This document shows, one piece after another, positions 10,207-17,791 of a stretch of DNA of 45,121 bases (position 1 is the stretch's first letter; the number at the start of each line of letters is the position of its first letter). The translations under genes were made by a program, and so were the position numbers. This DNA is from Thermodesulfovibrio sp. GTDB lineage: Bacteria; Nitrospirota; Thermodesulfovibrionia; Thermodesulfovibrionales; Thermodesulfovibrionaceae. Where the stretch lies: assembly GCA_025057595.1 (NCBI GenBank), contig JANXBK010000011.1, positions 1 to 45,121 on the forward strand, written 5' to 3'. The notes beneath the pieces are model-generated. The model was not told the origin of the DNA, did not search any database, and worked only from the letters and a program-made list of their open reading frames with translations.

Positions 10207-10215
10207 ATTATAACA
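10207..10215 (-). promoter_or_regulatory. Extended -10 box predicting a leaderless nfeD-type transcript
   Basis: TGTTATAAT reads on the minus strand and ends 5 bases before the ATG at 10201. It overlaps the AOR stop codon. No -35 match and no Shine-Dalgarno are visible. It could be a separate start for the nfeD-ceramide genes. Confidence 0.45.
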
Positions 10216-11968
10216 AACTTTTAATCTTTTCTCTTAGAATCTCAATTATTCTGTCTGCAAAATCCTTTTTTAGTAAACCAATTGAGGAGGGTAGCTCAAA
10301 AACTCTTTTTGGTAAACTTAAACTGCTAAGATCAAAACCAGATTTAATTTTAAAACGATACTTATCTATGTAAATCTTCTGCCCAATCTTCAATAACTCC
10401 TCTTTGCTTATATTATATCCAGTAAGCTTAAGACATCTTAAAATCACATCTACTGTATAAATCTCTCTTCCAAAGAAACATATTACAAGAGTTGAAAGAA
10501 TCTGTCTCCAACATTCCTCTGATATTATTTTATTAGCTATCTGCTCCTCATTTAATGGTCTCACCATAGCTTCTTTATCAATAGCATATCCTGCGGAATC
10601 GAGATGGCTATGTCTTGCACCAAATAGATAACCAATATGAGCAGCATATCCAGTATGATAACCAGGCATCTCATTTCCTCCATAGGTTAAAGCAAACTCT
10701 TTCCCTCCATATTTAGAGGATACATAATCAATACCTCTTCTTGTATCGTTGAAAAACTCACTTGTACCATAAACAATTTTCTTTATTATCTCAATATAGG
10801 TGTCTACATTACCCCATTGAGGAATGAGACCTTCTGTCATTTTTTCACTTATAACTCCCTTTTCAAAAGCTTCAGTGATCCAGGAAAGTACTACACCTGT
10901 TGATATAGCATCAAGACCCATATCTTCAACAACTTCAATTAGTTTTAAAACTCCCTCTGAGGAAGTTACTCCAAGCATGCTGCCAAGAGCATAAATTAAC
11001 TCATAATCATAAGATAAATAAACTGTTCTATAAAAATAGGGTTCATCCTCATAGGGTTTTCTTAATGTTGCTAAATGAATACAAGCTACAGGACAGTGAG
11101 AACAAGCAACTCTTCTGCCAAGATGTTTCTCTGCAAAACTCTCTCCTGATATATTGCTAATCTCTTGAAGCTCGTTTGTCAGTAGATTTTTTATAGGAAT
11201 ACCCCTTGAAAAACTAAGAGGCATTATATTTGAGGAAGTACCAAGCTCATGATACTTTCTCATCTTATCAGATTGAGCGAGTTGAGCAAGTAGTTCTCCA
11301 TAAACTTCTTTGTATTCTTTAAAATTAGTAACTTTTAAATCCCTTTTGCCTGAAACAACTACAGCTTTTAAATTTTTGCTCCCAAATACTGCACCAAGAC
11401 CGAGTCTGCCAAAGTGTCTATAAGTTTCGAGAGTAACACAGGCAAAACTTACCATTTTCTCTCCTGCAGGACCTATTCTCATGATTGTTCTAAGTCCTGC
11501 TCCCGGTTCTTGATTTCTTATGAGCCTTCCGGCAGAAACTCCTTCTTCAAGCCCCCATAGAGTTGTTGCATCTTTGAAGTAAACTTTATCTGAATGAATT
11601 GCAATATAGCAAGGTCTATCACTTCTTCCTTTTATAACTATTGCGCCGTATCCTGCCATTCTTATTGCTATAGCACTTCTTCCACCTGCGTGAGACTCTC
11701 CAAGATTACCTGTATGAGGAGATTTAAATACTGCAACTGTTTTTGAAGCAATCGGGAAAAGTCCATTTAAAGGACCTATAGCAAAAATGATAGGATTTTC
11801 AGGAGAAAAAGGATCTATATCATATCCACAGTTTTCGTGTAAAAGCTTAATAGCAACTCCTGTACCGCCTATAAATTGAGAAAATAGATCAGTTCTTTCT
11901 TCAACCCAAAATTTCTTTTTTGAAAGATCGATGTATAAAACTTTTTTTAATGTGTCCTCTTGAATCAT
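10208..11968 (-). CDS. Tungsten-dependent aldehyde:ferredoxin oxidoreductase
   Basis: This 586-residue enzyme of the AOR family should oxidise aldehydes to acids, passing electrons to ferredoxin, with a tungsten bis-pyranopterin cofactor. The N-terminal domain shows FIGGTGVAIKLL, GPLNGLFPIASK and GRLGLGAVFGSKNLKAVVV, typical of AOR_N. The cubane ligands appear as CSHCPVAC near residue 294, with a later cysteine in LVICFFGRE. Length is near the usual 600-620. The upstream ferredoxin overlaps it by ATGA, so the pair is probably a two-subunit enzyme. The aldehyde substrate cannot be read from the sequence. Confidence 0.93.
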   Translation of the reverse strand: MIQEDTLKKVLYIDLSKKKFWVEERTDLFSQFIGGTGVAIKLLHENCGYDIDPFSPENPIIFAIGPLNGLFPIASKTVAVFKSPHTGNLGESHAGGRSAIAIRMAGYGAIVIKGRSDRPCYIAIHSDKVYFKDATTLWGLEEGVSAGRLIRNQEPGAGLRTIMRIGPAGEKMVSFACVTLETYRHFGRLGLGAVFGSKNLKAVVVSGKRDLKVTNFKEYKEVYGELLAQLAQSDKMRKYHELGTSSNIMPLSFSRGIPIKNLLTNELQEISNISGESFAEKHLGRRVACSHCPVACIHLATLRKPYEDEPYFYRTVYLSYDYELIYALGSMLGVTSSEGVLKLIEVVEDMGLDAISTGVVLSWITEAFEKGVISEKMTEGLIPQWGNVDTYIEIIKKIVYGTSEFFNDTRRGIDYVSSKYGGKEFALTYGGNEMPGYHTGYAAHIGYLFGARHSHLDSAGYAIDKEAMVRPLNEEQIANKIISEECWRQILSTLVICFFGREIYTVDVILRCLKLTGYNISKEELLKIGQKIYIDKYRFKIKSGFDLSSLSLPKRVFELPSSIGLLKKDFADRIIEILREKIKSLL

Positions 11969-12360
11969 ATTCTTCTATACTCTAAGACTCTATAGTGACA
12001 ACTCTTTGCACATTCTCCACATTGAATACATATGACAGGCTTATTTTTAATGGTACTCCATCCAATAGCATCAAGAATACATGCCTTTACGCAGTAGCTA
12101 CAACCTGTGCATCTGTCCTCCTTCAGTAAAACTCCACCACTTTTTCTTACTATTAAAGCATCTTCAGGACAGCTACGAGCACAAGGAGGATCTTCACAGC
12201 CTCTACAGACAAATACAGAAAATCCACGAGAGATTCCACCTTGAGATCTTACTTTTATACAGGAGCTTTCAAGACCTACTGCTAAATGTGCTCTTCCACA
12301 AGCAAACATACAGATGAGACAACCAACACATTTTTCAGAATCTCTCACAAAAACAGGCAT
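11965..12360 (-). CDS. Polyferredoxin subunit of the AOR (four [4Fe-4S] clusters)
   Basis: This 131-residue electron carrier has four cysteine groups: CVGCLICMFAC, CRGCEDPPCARSC, CTGCSYCVKAC and CIQCGECAKSC. Together they give sixteen ligands, enough for four [4Fe-4S] clusters in the HycB/CooF/AOR-ferredoxin style. There is no signal peptide, so it works in the cytoplasm. Its stop overlaps the AOR ATG, and it should carry electrons from that enzyme. Its ATG lies 6 bases after a TATAAT box, inside a perfect palindrome, with no Shine-Dalgarno. Confidence 0.92.
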   Translation of the reverse strand: MPVFVRDSEKCVGCLICMFACGRAHLAVGLESSCIKVRSQGGISRGFSVFVCRGCEDPPCARSCPEDALIVRKSGGVLLKEDRCTGCSYCVKACILDAIGWSTIKNKPVICIQCGECAKSCHYRVLEYRRI

Positions 12361-12364
12361 AGAA

Positions 12365-12386
12365 AAATTATAACATGTTATAATTT
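12365..12386. promoter_or_regulatory. 22-base perfect palindrome carrying divergent extended -10 boxes
   Basis: The palindrome lies between two genes that start 36 bases apart. Its right arm is TGTTATAAT (12376-12384) on the plus strand; the left arm is the same sequence on the minus strand (12375-12367). The minus-strand box ends 6 bases before the ferredoxin ATG and the plus-strand box ends 12 bases before the PAP2 gene ATG. It could also be a dyad operator; nothing else here distinguishes the two readings. Confidence 0.6.
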
Positions 12387-12396
12387 CAAATTAAAT

Positions 12397-14409
12397 ATGG
12401 AACGAGAGATTTTACTTTTTTTTCATAAGACTCTCGCCAATAATTTCTTAGATGTTATTATGATTTTCTTTACCAAAAAGGGTTGGATTTTTTTGACTCC
12501 TCTGTTGTTGTGGATTATGTTTAAATTTCTAAGAGATAAAAACTATAAATTATTTTTTTATTTGATATTTGCAATTTTATTAGGAGTCTTTTTTTCTGAT
12601 TGGCTCTCCCATGAACTAAAAAATATTATTCAAAGAGTTCGCCCCTGCCAAACTGAGTACTTCAGAGGTATTGTAGGATGTGCTCACTCATATAGCTTTC
12701 CCTCAACTCATGCTTCTAACGCCTTTACTTCCTCAACAGTTTTAATTTTTTTTCTAAGAAAGCTTTCAGTATCAAAAAAAATTAAAAATATTCTGTCAAT
12801 ATATATATTGTTAATCGCCTCTTTGATCTCAATTTCCAGAGTATATCTTGGTGTTCACTGGGCTACAGATATCTTAGCTGGTGCAATATTTGGAGTAATT
12901 TTAGGATATCTTATCTTTTACACCCTCCTAAAAATAAACTCCTTAAAAAGGGCTTTTTATTTTTTTCTTTTTATAATAACTATTTTTAGAATTTACTTTA
13001 TTCTCTATTCACCAATAGATCTTTCACCTGATGAAGCCCATTATTGGGAGTGGAGTCGAAGACTTGACTTAAGTTATTACTCAAAAGGTCCAATGATTGC
13101 CTATTTAATTGCTATTTCAACTGGCGTTTTTGGAAACAATCCTTTTGGAGTAAGAGTCCTTGCAGTGGTATGCTCTTTTCTATGCAGTGTTTTTCTCTAT
13201 AAAATTGGAAATAAACTTTTTAATGAAAGAGTCGGATATATAAGTGGATTACTTTTTCAATTAATACCTCTATTTTCAGCTTTTGGAGTTATCTTTACAA
13301 TTGACAGTCCTTTCATTCTGTTTTGGATTATCTCAACGTATCTTTTTATACTTGCCCAAGAGGGTAAAATAAGATATTGGTTACTTCTTGGAGTATTCAT
13401 CGGATTTGGACTTCTTACTAAGTATACTATGGCTTTTTTCTACTTGTGCATATTTATTTATCTACTGAAAAAAACTCATAGCTACATAGACAATTTTAAA
13501 AACCCAATGCTTTATTTATGCGTAGTTTTATCCATATTTGTATTTTCTCCAGTTATAATTTGGAACTTTCAACACGACTGGGTTACACTTAAACATACAG
13601 CAGGACAAGCAAATTTATATGAAGGGGTTAAAATTTCTCTAAGATCTTTTGCTGAATTCGTAGGAAGCCAACTATTAGTTGTTACACCTTTAATCTTTAT
13701 TGCGGGTTTTTATCTTCTTTTTAAAAGAAATATTTTCCAAAACAAACACTGGTGGTTTCTTATTTCTTTTTCTATGCCTGTATTTATCTTTTTTTTACTC
13801 AAAAGCTTACAAGGTAAAGTTCAAGCAAATTGGGCGATGCCCGCATATATTCCTTTTTTATTAGTAATATCTTATGCCTTTGAAAGGAATATACTCAAAA
13901 AACTCATTATTTCTTCAGTGATCTTAGCCTCTATTTTTACATTTTTAACTTATGTAATACCCTTCTTCAATCTACCGGCAAATATTGATCCCTCTTTAAG
14001 ACTTAAAGGCTGGAGACAGCTTGGAATTAAAGTATCAGAAATTAAAAAAGAGATGGAAAAATCTGGAAATGTGATAATCTTTTCTGATAGATATCAAGTA
14101 TCTAGTGAGCTTGCTTTTTATGTAAAGGGATATCCTACAGTTTACTGTATTAATCTCGGAAGACGAATGAATCAATATGATTTATGGCAATCAATAAATA
14201 GTGAACTTAAAACCGAAACAAAAACTCACGGAATTTATGTTGTCTATGGAATAAAAAACGAACCTGCAGCTGAGGTCTCCTCGGCTTTTGAAAGATGTAC
14301 TTCTGAGACTTTTACAGCAAAACAAAAGGGTGTTAAAATTAGAGAGTATACTATTTTTAAATGCTATAATTTTAAAGGTATGATTTTAAGAAAACCTGAA
14401 AAATACTAA
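12397..14409 (+). CDS. PAP2 phosphatase fused to ArnT/PMT-like (GT39/83) glycosyltransferase
   Basis: This 670-residue membrane protein has two enzymes in one chain. Residues 1-190 are a PAP2 phosphatase with KNIIQRVRP, SYSFPSTHASNAF and SRVYLGVHWATD, the three lipid-phosphatase motifs. Residues 200-560 are a multi-spanning PMT_2 glycosyltransferase whose first loop has LSPDEAHYWEWSR, holding the family's acidic catalytic residue. A soluble tail of about 100 residues follows. The phosphatase could recycle an undecaprenyl or lipid A phosphate while the transferase moves a sugar from a polyprenyl-phosphate carrier. The open frame extends upstream to 12286, but that lies in the ferredoxin gene; the ATG at 12397 just after the promoter is the natural start. 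Confidence 0.88.
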   Translation: MEREILLFFHKTLANNFLDVIMIFFTKKGWIFLTPLLLWIMFKFLRDKNYKLFFYLIFAILLGVFFSDWLSHELKNIIQRVRPCQTEYFRGIVGCAHSYSFPSTHASNAFTSSTVLIFFLRKLSVSKKIKNILSIYILLIASLISISRVYLGVHWATDILAGAIFGVILGYLIFYTLLKINSLKRAFYFFLFIITIFRIYFILYSPIDLSPDEAHYWEWSRRLDLSYYSKGPMIAYLIAISTGVFGNNPFGVRVLAVVCSFLCSVFLYKIGNKLFNERVGYISGLLFQLIPLFSAFGVIFTIDSPFILFWIISTYLFILAQEGKIRYWLLLGVFIGFGLLTKYTMAFFYLCIFIYLLKKTHSYIDNFKNPMLYLCVVLSIFVFSPVIIWNFQHDWVTLKHTAGQANLYEGVKISLRSFAEFVGSQLLVVTPLIFIAGFYLLFKRNIFQNKHWWFLISFSMPVFIFFLLKSLQGKVQANWAMPAYIPFLLVISYAFERNILKKLIISSVILASIFTFLTYVIPFFNLPANIDPSLRLKGWRQLGIKVSEIKKEMEKSGNVIIFSDRYQVSSELAFYVKGYPTVYCINLGRRMNQYDLWQSINSELKTETKTHGIYVVYGIKNEPAAEVSSAFERCTSETFTAKQKGVKIREYTIFKCYNFKGMILRKPEKY

Positions 14410-14412
14410 AAA

Positions 14413-15357
14413 ATGGATCTGTCAATTATTATTCCTCTTTACAATGAAGAAGAAAATATTGAGGAGCTTCATAAAAAACTTACAGAGACTCTAAGTAAGC
14501 TTTCTCTTTCTTATGAGATTATATATGTGGATGATGGAAGTATCGATAACACTTTAAAAATTCTTGAAGAAATTCAGAAAAACGATCCCCACGTAGTTGT
14601 CTTAAGCTTTAGAAGAAACTTTGGACAAACAGCAGCTTTTGCTGCAGGATTTGATTTTGCAAGAGGTGACATAGTTGTCACGATGGATGGAGATCTTCAG
14701 AATGATCCTGCAGACATACCAAAACTTCTTGATGCAATAAAGGATGCTGATTTAGTAAGTGGATGGAGAAAAAAGAGAAAAGATCCCTTTTTTTCAAGAA
14801 GACTTCCATCAATGATTGCGAATTGGCTAATTGGAAAAGTTACAGGAGTAAGAATTCACGATTATGGATGTTCTCTTAAAGCTTACAGAAGAGATGTTAT
14901 AAAAAACTTAAGACTTTATGGAGAGATGCATCGCTTTATTCCCGCACTTGCAAGTTGGTATGGAGTAAAAATAAAAGAAGTGGAAGTAACACATCATCCC
15001 AGATATAAAGGAAAATCAAAATATGGAATAGGAAGAACAATAAAAGTACTTCTTGATCTTGTCACAGTAAAGTTTCTTCACAGTTTTTCAACAAAGCCAA
15101 TTCAATTTTTTGGTCCAATTGGTGTTTTATTTATGGTATTAGGTACTGTTACAGTAGGATATCTTTTTGTACTGAAAATTATTAAAGGAGTATCTATTGG
15201 TGGCAGACCTCTACTTCTTGGAGGTTTTTTCTCTGTCTTGATAGGATTAAACTTTATTGGTATGGGGCTTCTTGGTGAGATGATTGTAAGGGTTTATCAT
15301 GAAACACAAAAAAAACCCATCTATATTATTAAGAAAATTTTAGGTCCTGGAGATTGA
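14413..15357 (+). CDS. GT2 polyprenyl-phosphate glycosyltransferase (GtrB/ArnC/Dpm1-like)
   Basis: This 314-residue enzyme probably loads a sugar from a nucleotide onto polyprenyl phosphate on the cytoplasmic face. The GT-A domain has IIPLYNEEENI at the start, YVDDGSIDNT, the metal motif DGDLQNDP, and DYGCSLKAYRRDV. Two membrane segments near residues 235-260 and 270-295 anchor it, as in GtrB. It begins 3 bases after the PAP2-GT fusion, which is a plausible user of its product, and its stop overlaps the next TTG. The sugar is unknown. Confidence 0.9.
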   Translation: MDLSIIIPLYNEEENIEELHKKLTETLSKLSLSYEIIYVDDGSIDNTLKILEEIQKNDPHVVVLSFRRNFGQTAAFAAGFDFARGDIVVTMDGDLQNDPADIPKLLDAIKDADLVSGWRKKRKDPFFSRRLPSMIANWLIGKVTGVRIHDYGCSLKAYRRDVIKNLRLYGEMHRFIPALASWYGVKIKEVEVTHHPRYKGKSKYGIGRTIKVLLDLVTVKFLHSFSTKPIQFFGPIGVLFMVLGTVTVGYLFVLKIIKGVSIGGRPLLLGGFFSVLIGLNFIGMGLLGEMIVRVYHETQKKPIYIIKKILGPGD

Positions 15358-16247
15358 GAAACTATTTAAAATTCCTTATTCGTCTTCTAATTACAACTGT
15401 TTTGATATTTTTTCTTTTTCAAAAACTAAATTTTTCAGAATTTTATCAAGCTTTGAAAAAATCAAATCTGATTTATATTGTTTTTGCCTCTTTTCTCTAT
15501 CTGCTTTCTTCCTATATATCAACTTTAAGATGGAAAATATTTATTTCTTCTTCAAAAATAAAAATCTCTGAACTTTTCTCTCTTTATTTGATTGGCTCCT
15601 TTTTCAATATTACTTTGCCAGGAATAGTAAGTGGTGACATAGTAAAAATTTTAATGATCAAAGATAAAGTTAACTTAAGAGAAGCTATTTTTTCTATATT
15701 TATGGATAGATATATAGGATTTTCCGTCTTACTTTTTGTTGGCTTTATATTTTTTTTGATTTTCTATCCAAAACTACCCAAAAGTTGGATTTTATGGAGT
15801 GTGCCTATAAGTTTTCTTGGCTTTATACTCTTTTCTTTATTTCTATATATATTAGTCAACTTTAGATTCCTAAAGGAGTTTAAATCGTTACTGGGTTGTC
15901 TTAAAAAAAATCAGATTTTTATGACCCTAATACTCTCTCTGTTTATTCAGTTTTGTGTTATCTTTTCTGTATATGTGGTGACAAAATCTATAAATCTTGA
16001 ACTGTCTTTTTTTAAAATTGCTATCTTTTTGCCAGTGATAATTTTAATTACCACATTGCCTATATCGATCTCAGGAGTGGGAGTAAGAGAGTGGTGTTTT
16101 CTTTTGTTTTTTGAAAAATTTATACCACCAGAAAAAGCTTTGGCTACCTCTGTTCTTTGGTTTGCTTCTGTAGTTTTTGCATCCCTGATAGGTGGATTTG
16201 AATATCTAAGATTAAAAAAGAAGTCTTTGAATATAAAACAAAAATAG
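15354..16247 (+). CDS. Lysylphosphatidylglycerol synthase TM/UPF0104 family protein (flippase-like)
   Basis: This 297-residue protein consists largely of hydrophobic segments (about seven or eight) and matches the LPG_synthase_TM family by pattern: TLRWKIFI, LIGSFFNITLPGIVSGDIVK, the FMDRYIGF block and ISGVGVREW. Members are proposed flippases or membrane parts of glycan pathways; the catalytic MprF lysyl-transfer domain is absent. It starts with TTG overlapping the GT2 stop (TTGA). It likely serves the same lipid-linked sugar pathway as the two preceding genes. Its 3' end overlaps the convergent HDOD gene by 36 bases. Confidence 0.85.
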   Translation: MRNYLKFLIRLLITTVLIFFLFQKLNFSEFYQALKKSNLIYIVFASFLYLLSSYISTLRWKIFISSSKIKISELFSLYLIGSFFNITLPGIVSGDIVKILMIKDKVNLREAIFSIFMDRYIGFSVLLFVGFIFFLIFYPKLPKSWILWSVPISFLGFILFSLFLYILVNFRFLKEFKSLLGCLKKNQIFMTLILSLFIQFCVIFSVYVVTKSINLELSFFKIAIFLPVIILITTLPISISGVGVREWCFLLFFEKFIPPEKALATSVLWFASVVFASLIGGFEYLRLKKKSLNIKQK

Positions 16248-17773: not shown

Positions 17774-17791
17774 TTTTTATTATAATAAAAA
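17774..17791. promoter_or_regulatory. 18-base palindrome with overlapping TATAAT boxes, divergent promoter
   Basis: The minus-strand TATAAT (17784-17779) ends 7 bases before the HDOD gene ATG. The plus-strand TATAAT (17781-17786) would start mnmG mRNA near 17793, leaving a short leader with AAAGG before the ATG at 17816. The two boxes share four bases, so only one direction can open at a time. Confidence 0.55.

Follow-up and report, generated by a model that had tools for sequence, protein, structure and literature searches.

What is the perfect palindrome that fills most of the gap between two divergent operons of Thermodesulfovibrio sp., from a genus of thermophilic sulfate reducers: a pair of promoters, a site for a regulator, or an accident of AT-rich DNA? 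In the window (the whole 45,121-nucleotide stretch that was analysed), the palindrome AAATTATAACATGTTATAATTT occupies positions 12365–12386, has its centre at 12375/12376, and ends at 22 bp with the mismatched outer pair 12364 A/12387 C. An earlier sequence-only reading had described such a palindrome with this centre, the same extended -10 element facing outward on both strands, and 36 bases between the two ATGs. Direct reading of the sequence agrees on all three: TGTTATAAT lies at 12376–12384 on the plus strand and at 12375–12367 on the minus strand, and the gap between the start codons is 12361–12396, the A of the minus strand ATG being at 12360 and the plus strand ATG at 12397. The two copies of TGTTATAAT meet with their TG ends head to head and zero bases between them, so the palindrome is an automatic consequence of the same 9-mer being written on both strands. 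Their TATAAT hexamers, 12367–12372 (minus) and 12379–12384 (plus), are 6 bp apart and do not overlap. The features of the locus are the following.

10208–11968, minus strand: 586-aa aldehyde:ferredoxin oxidoreductase (AOR) catalytic subunit (AFOR_N and AFOR_C domains; best PDB match 1aor_A)
11965–12360, minus strand: 131-aa ferredoxin-like protein with four clusters, the small subunit in an AOR-type enzyme (PDB 8c0z_C, 6x1o_B and 9mqx_E among the best matches)
12360, minus strand: predicted leaderless transcription start, at the A of the ATG, from the -10 position
12365–12386, no strand: perfect 22-bp palindrome AAATTATAACATGTTATAATTT (sequence, mismatch search, resampling)
12367–12384, no strand: conserved core of 18 bp, ATTATAACATGTTATAAT, formed by two TGTTATAAT boxes that abut; the same in 16/16 genomes of the genus
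12367–12375, minus strand: extended -10 box TGTTATAAT toward the ferredoxin-subunit/AOR operon (hexamer 12372–12367)
12376–12384, plus strand: extended -10 box TGTTATAAT toward the PAP2-glycosyltransferase operon (hexamer 12379–12384)
12391, plus strand: predicted transcription start (± about 1–2 nt), leader about 6 nt, from the -10 position
12397–14409, plus strand: 670-aa protein with a PAP2 phosphatase domain and a PMT_2 glycosyltransferase domain (domain match)
14413–15357, plus strand: family 2 glycosyltransferase (3-nt gap after the PAP2 gene; presumably same operon)
15354–16247, plus strand: LPG_synthase_TM/flippase-like membrane protein (TIGR00374; begins with TTG and overlaps the preceding gene; presumably same operon)

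On the left the AOR gene overlaps the ferredoxin-subunit gene by 4 nt; AOR enzymes use tungsten, and small subunits of the 9mqx/8c0z type carry electrons. On the right the PAP2-PMT_2, family 2 glycosyltransferase and flippase-like genes are plausibly a single operon serving lipid-linked sugar transfer.

The length of the palindrome is by itself only moderately surprising, weak to moderate evidence of function, because in Markov-1 resampling of this AT-rich window (40 resamplings) perfect palindromes of 18 bp or longer arose on average 0.575 times per simulated window, those of 20 bp or longer 0.275 times and those of 22 bp or longer 0.025 times. A mismatch search found no second match to the palindrome in the window at up to 3 mismatches (0 in 100 shuffles), and a repeat search of the window does not have this gapless dyad among its entries. 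The complete genome of the relative G002, sampled over 400 kb, has six perfect palindromes of at least 18 bp, and the corresponding site, at 26 bp, is the longest of them. The resampling frequencies are what a functionless chance palindrome would have in its favour; that explanation is refuted by the conservation described next, and we give it practically no credence.

Comparison of the region among related genomes, which the sequence-only reading had offered as a check on the dyad, found the symmetry kept: the 18-bp core is identical in 16/16 genomes of the genus, with one exact copy in each, between the same divergent ferredoxin-subunit and PAP2 genes, a pair kept throughout the genus. All 18 core columns are invariant across the 16 rows despite 16 distinct flanking rows. 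The columns flanking the core are mostly variable, the exceptions being -1 and +21 (16/16) and -2, -6, +22 and +23 (15/16); since the outer 4 bp of the palindrome are not fully conserved, the conserved unit is 18 bp and not 22. Against this, four adjacent genes have 234 four-fold degenerate columns, of which only 7 (about 3%) are invariant (1/28, 2/100, 1/36 and 3/70 gene by gene, 14–16 genomes each); the core is thus subject to strong purifying selection. Two genomes, G015 (L135, C164) and G007 (L045, C60), have a PAP2-glycosyltransferase gene broken by stops or frame breaks beside an intact dyad, which reflects either low-coverage assembly or recent decay. The arrangement ends at the border of the genus: a search of 176 genomes from the order, in which position -13 could be any base, found the pattern once in each of the 16 genus members and in 0 of the 160 others. 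Named relatives in the alignment of the ferredoxin subunit are either Thermodesulfovibrio or MAGs of uncultured Nitrospiraceae. Outside the genus the dyad is absent at the PAP2-glycosyltransferase homologues of 14 order-level genomes and at three ferredoxin-subunit homologues. G019, G024 and G036 have a 37–39% relative of the ferredoxin subunit, followed in G019 and G024 by an AOR-like frame, and their PAP2 homologue is on another contig.

We think it probable, on the evidence of sequence and conservation, that the dyad consists of a pair of complete extended -10 promoters, back to back within one RNA polymerase footprint and hence mutually exclusive. From the left box, leftward transcription of the ferredoxin-subunit/AOR operon would begin at the A of its ATG and yield a leaderless mRNA; from the right box, transcription of the PAP2-glycosyltransferase, family 2 glycosyltransferase and flippase-like operon would run rightward, behind a leader of roughly 6 nt. 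Because both boxes would fall within one polymerase footprint, occupancy in one orientation should exclude the other, and the two operons would compete at initiation. Both boxes have TGn directly before TATAAT in 16/16 genomes, as extended -10 promoters do, and neither is paired with a -35-like hexamer, which such promoters can dispense with: a sigma-70 consensus scan of 12200–12550 found none at 16–18 nt from either -10. That scan, which used -35 and -10 elements together, missed both boxes because no -35 fits them.

The left TATAAT is 6 nt from the ferredoxin-subunit ATG in 16/16 genomes, the spacing (about 5–8 nt) of leaderless genes. The right TATAAT lies outside that range, 12 nt from the PAP2 ATG in eight genomes, 13 in four, 14 in three and 49 in one. 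In this last, G001 (L040, C10:129508–129556), an insertion with a partial CACAAATTAG repeat has moved the ATG and left the dyad unchanged. With the usual -10-to-start distance (compare PMC12825309), the predicted PAP2-side leader is about 6–8 nt in 15 genomes; at about 6 nt in the window it would be too short for a Shine-Dalgarno sequence. Of the two genes described as near-leaderless, only the one on the minus strand is thus predicted to be truly leaderless; the plus strand gene has a short predicted leader.

This asymmetry is the argument for a reading in which the leftward AOR promoter alone is real, the right box being kept for some other purpose (as a spacer element, for example) and the plus strand operon starting elsewhere, e.g. 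inside the ferredoxin-subunit gene; only the left box has textbook leaderless spacing in 16/16, and the G001 insertion has carried the plus strand ATG to 49 nt. We regard this as improbable, since the right box is equally invariant (9/9 columns in 16/16), stands 12–14 nt from its ATG in 15/16 genomes, and has no competitor, there being no further TATAAT in the 36-bp gap to serve the plus strand operon. The case for a plus strand promoter accordingly consists of the box itself and the lack of another candidate, at a distance outside the 5–8 nt class. That the palindrome might act as an RNA structure or riboswitch-like element, as its ability to fold as RNA would allow, is scarcely credible: each transcript is predicted to begin beyond the dyad, which would then be in neither mRNA, and Rfam returned only two sub-threshold matches, both to eukaryotic families.

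Back-to-back promoters of this kind would be built from a unit that appears common in the genus. A 400-kb sample of G002 contains 75 occurrences of TGnTATAAT on both strands. When ATG distances from 0 to 40 nt were tested, requiring an open frame of at least 70 codons, 16 of the 75 were followed by such an ATG at 5–8 nt and 12 at the other 37 distances combined; under a different start rule the count was 16 of 35 within 60 nt. Plain TATAAT gave 21 at 5–8 nt and 98 at other distances, and three scrambled AT hexamers gave 6 and 43, 5 and 71, and 2 and 54. These counts indicate that Thermodesulfovibrio genes commonly start from an extended -10 box 5–8 nt ahead of the ATG, a spacing that would put the transcription start on or beside the ATG, and that the ferredoxin-subunit box is, by its sequence and position, a standard member of this putative leaderless class. 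TGnTATAAT 5–8 nt before an ATG may therefore serve as an annotation rule for gene starts and promoters in the genus.

Lone promoters of the class are almost as invariant as the dyad. At nfeD, directly downstream of the AOR gene, TGTTATAAT is kept in 13/13 genomes, a comparison that is partly protein-coding because the AOR frame ends within the box. In the window this box is at 10207–10215 (minus strand), 5 nt before the nfeD ATG and inside the end of the AOR gene, whose stop codon TAA forms part of the nfeD -10 hexamer. TGnTATAAT is kept before a trpB-like gene in 12/12 readable rows (n is C in 11 and A in 1; 12 of 13 rows were used, G003 being at a contig edge), before a penicillin-binding-protein (PBP) gene in 14/15 (T at n in 13/15; 15 of 17 matches, the partial match in G006 and a second identical G002 copy being set aside), and before truA in 13/15 (15 of 16 rows, G011 being at a contig edge). 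The two G002 copies (C1:1531396 and 1582599; L173 and L189) are 100% identical 736-aa PBP-like genes that lie some 51 kb from each other in a genome assembled as one contig, and represent either a recent duplication or an assembly repeat. The focal half-boxes, at 16/16 each, are at the top of this range and not beyond it; with T at position -13 in 32/32 halves they are slightly stricter than the PBP and trpB-like lone promoters.

These comparisons bear on the suggestion that the dyad binds a dimeric regulator of AOR expression. In its general form this would make the dyad the operator of a dimeric regulator for one or both operons, overlapping the promoter or promoters, and the site does have the expected twofold symmetry, which is perfect, with all 18 bp and the zero spacer strictly kept in 16/16 genomes. 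The edges of the conserved block are nevertheless precisely the edges of two TGnTATAAT boxes, and lone boxes without any dyad are nearly as invariant, so that no dimeric regulator is needed to account for the conservation. A single exact site per genome gives no sign of a regulon, and Pfam found no HTH-type regulator among the 16 neighbouring gene products; the sole regulator-like gene nearby encodes an HDOD and AAA+ (sigma-54 activator-like) protein 4 kb away. We consider an operator unlikely, and the proposed regulator of AOR unsupported. Mismatch and relaxed dyad searches of the genus genomes for a regulon were also made and yielded extra sites without a common set: allowing up to 2 mismatches gave 11 further sites in the 16 genomes, where the reversed control gave 3, and a single one of the further sequences recurs, in two genomes.

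Other symmetric or abutting promoters occur in these genomes. In G000, the genome of the window, the divergent DUF763 and truA genes are separated by abutting TGTTAAAAT/TGTTATAAT boxes (L002 1501–1522, equal to G000 C1:13742–13763), each 5 nt from its ATG. A pattern search on the DUF763 side found a divergent start in 4 of 15 rows (G000, G002, G003 and G005); the DUF763-side box is visible by eye in G001, G004, G008, G010 and G013, and the truA-side box is lost in G008 and G013. A script put the spacer between the boxes at 0 in G000 and at 4 in G003 and G005, and reading by eye gives 3 or 4 for G001, G004 and G010, unlike the spacer of the focal boxes, which is 0 in 16/16. We do not treat the fixed zero spacer of the focal dyad as significant, because a single junction leaves little room for indels and the 12-nt stretch before the plus strand ATG, too, has few length classes. 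It is possible, and we hold this only tentatively, that the zero-spacer symmetry is itself selected, as a one-polymerase switch or as a dedicated site for a regulator with a single target, and would constitute a further bidirectional geometry; if so, a one-polymerase switch would force the oxidoreductase and envelope lipid-glycosylation operons to compete.

The only other 18-bp palindrome of the window is also a symmetric -10 element, TTTTTATTATAATAAAAA at 17774–17791, between the HDOD/AAA+ gene (start 17771, minus strand) and mnmG/gidA (17816, plus strand). Its core TATTATAATA is present at 15/15 orthologues of the HDOD gene and consists of overlapping -10 hexamers with predicted starts 21 bp apart. 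In G005, G009 and G011, where mnmG does not lie directly opposite, the element is retained all the same, a caution that symmetry may be preserved for the sake of a single direction.

Three known kinds of promoter invite comparison. As proposed for the focal site, the bidirectional promoters of Warman, Grainger and colleagues have opposed -10 elements in one polymerase site, whose symmetry lets the enzyme bind in two exclusive orientations, and they drive divergent transcription; in the available passages of PMC10268837 and PMC12825309 their divergent starts are 7–25 bp apart with overlapping -10 elements, spacings of 18, 10 and 23 bp being favoured and 18 bp the commonest, and excerpts of PMC12825309 treat competition between the orientations at E. 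coli bidirectional promoters. As described in those passages, the class has shared or reciprocally overlapping -10 elements; this is true of the 17774–17791 element, whose predicted 21 bp also fits, whereas the focal hexamers are 6 bp apart, each with its own TG extension, and the predicted distance between the focal starts (12360 and 12391, from the -10 positions) is 31 bp. The focal site would thus represent a divergent geometry that a 7–25 bp start-spacing filter would miss. Should the competition prove real, sequence alone would couple the operon of a redox enzyme to an envelope-glycan operon at initiation.

The second kind is the promoter of leaderless genes, already described in other phyla. 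According to the passages available, a -10 box stands directly before the ATG of leaderless (TA-led) bacterial genes (PMC3160421), a -10 motif adjoins ORFs in Deinococcus (PMC12340547), and a TG extension is noted for low-GC genomes; divergent sharing and Nitrospirota are not mentioned in those passages. In the literature searched, to which subscription papers mostly did not belong, we found neither an account of extended -10 boxes that abut at leaderless divergent genes nor any start mapping for Thermodesulfovibrio. The focal site has the same -10 beside the ATG as the genes in these passages and, on one side, a predicted leaderless mRNA, here combined with near-absolute genus-wide conservation and with two such boxes that abut. 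The third kind is the extended -10 promoter of the sigma-70 type, which has the same TGnTATAAT without a -35. The site is a variant of these known kinds and not a new kind, and the symmetric divergent promoter proposed from the sequence gains support from the invariant 18-bp core, the 6 nt to the ferredoxin ATG, the 12–14 nt to the PAP2 ATG and the genus-wide class to which its left half appears to belong: it is most simply viewed as two putative extended -10 promoters, inverted and abutting.
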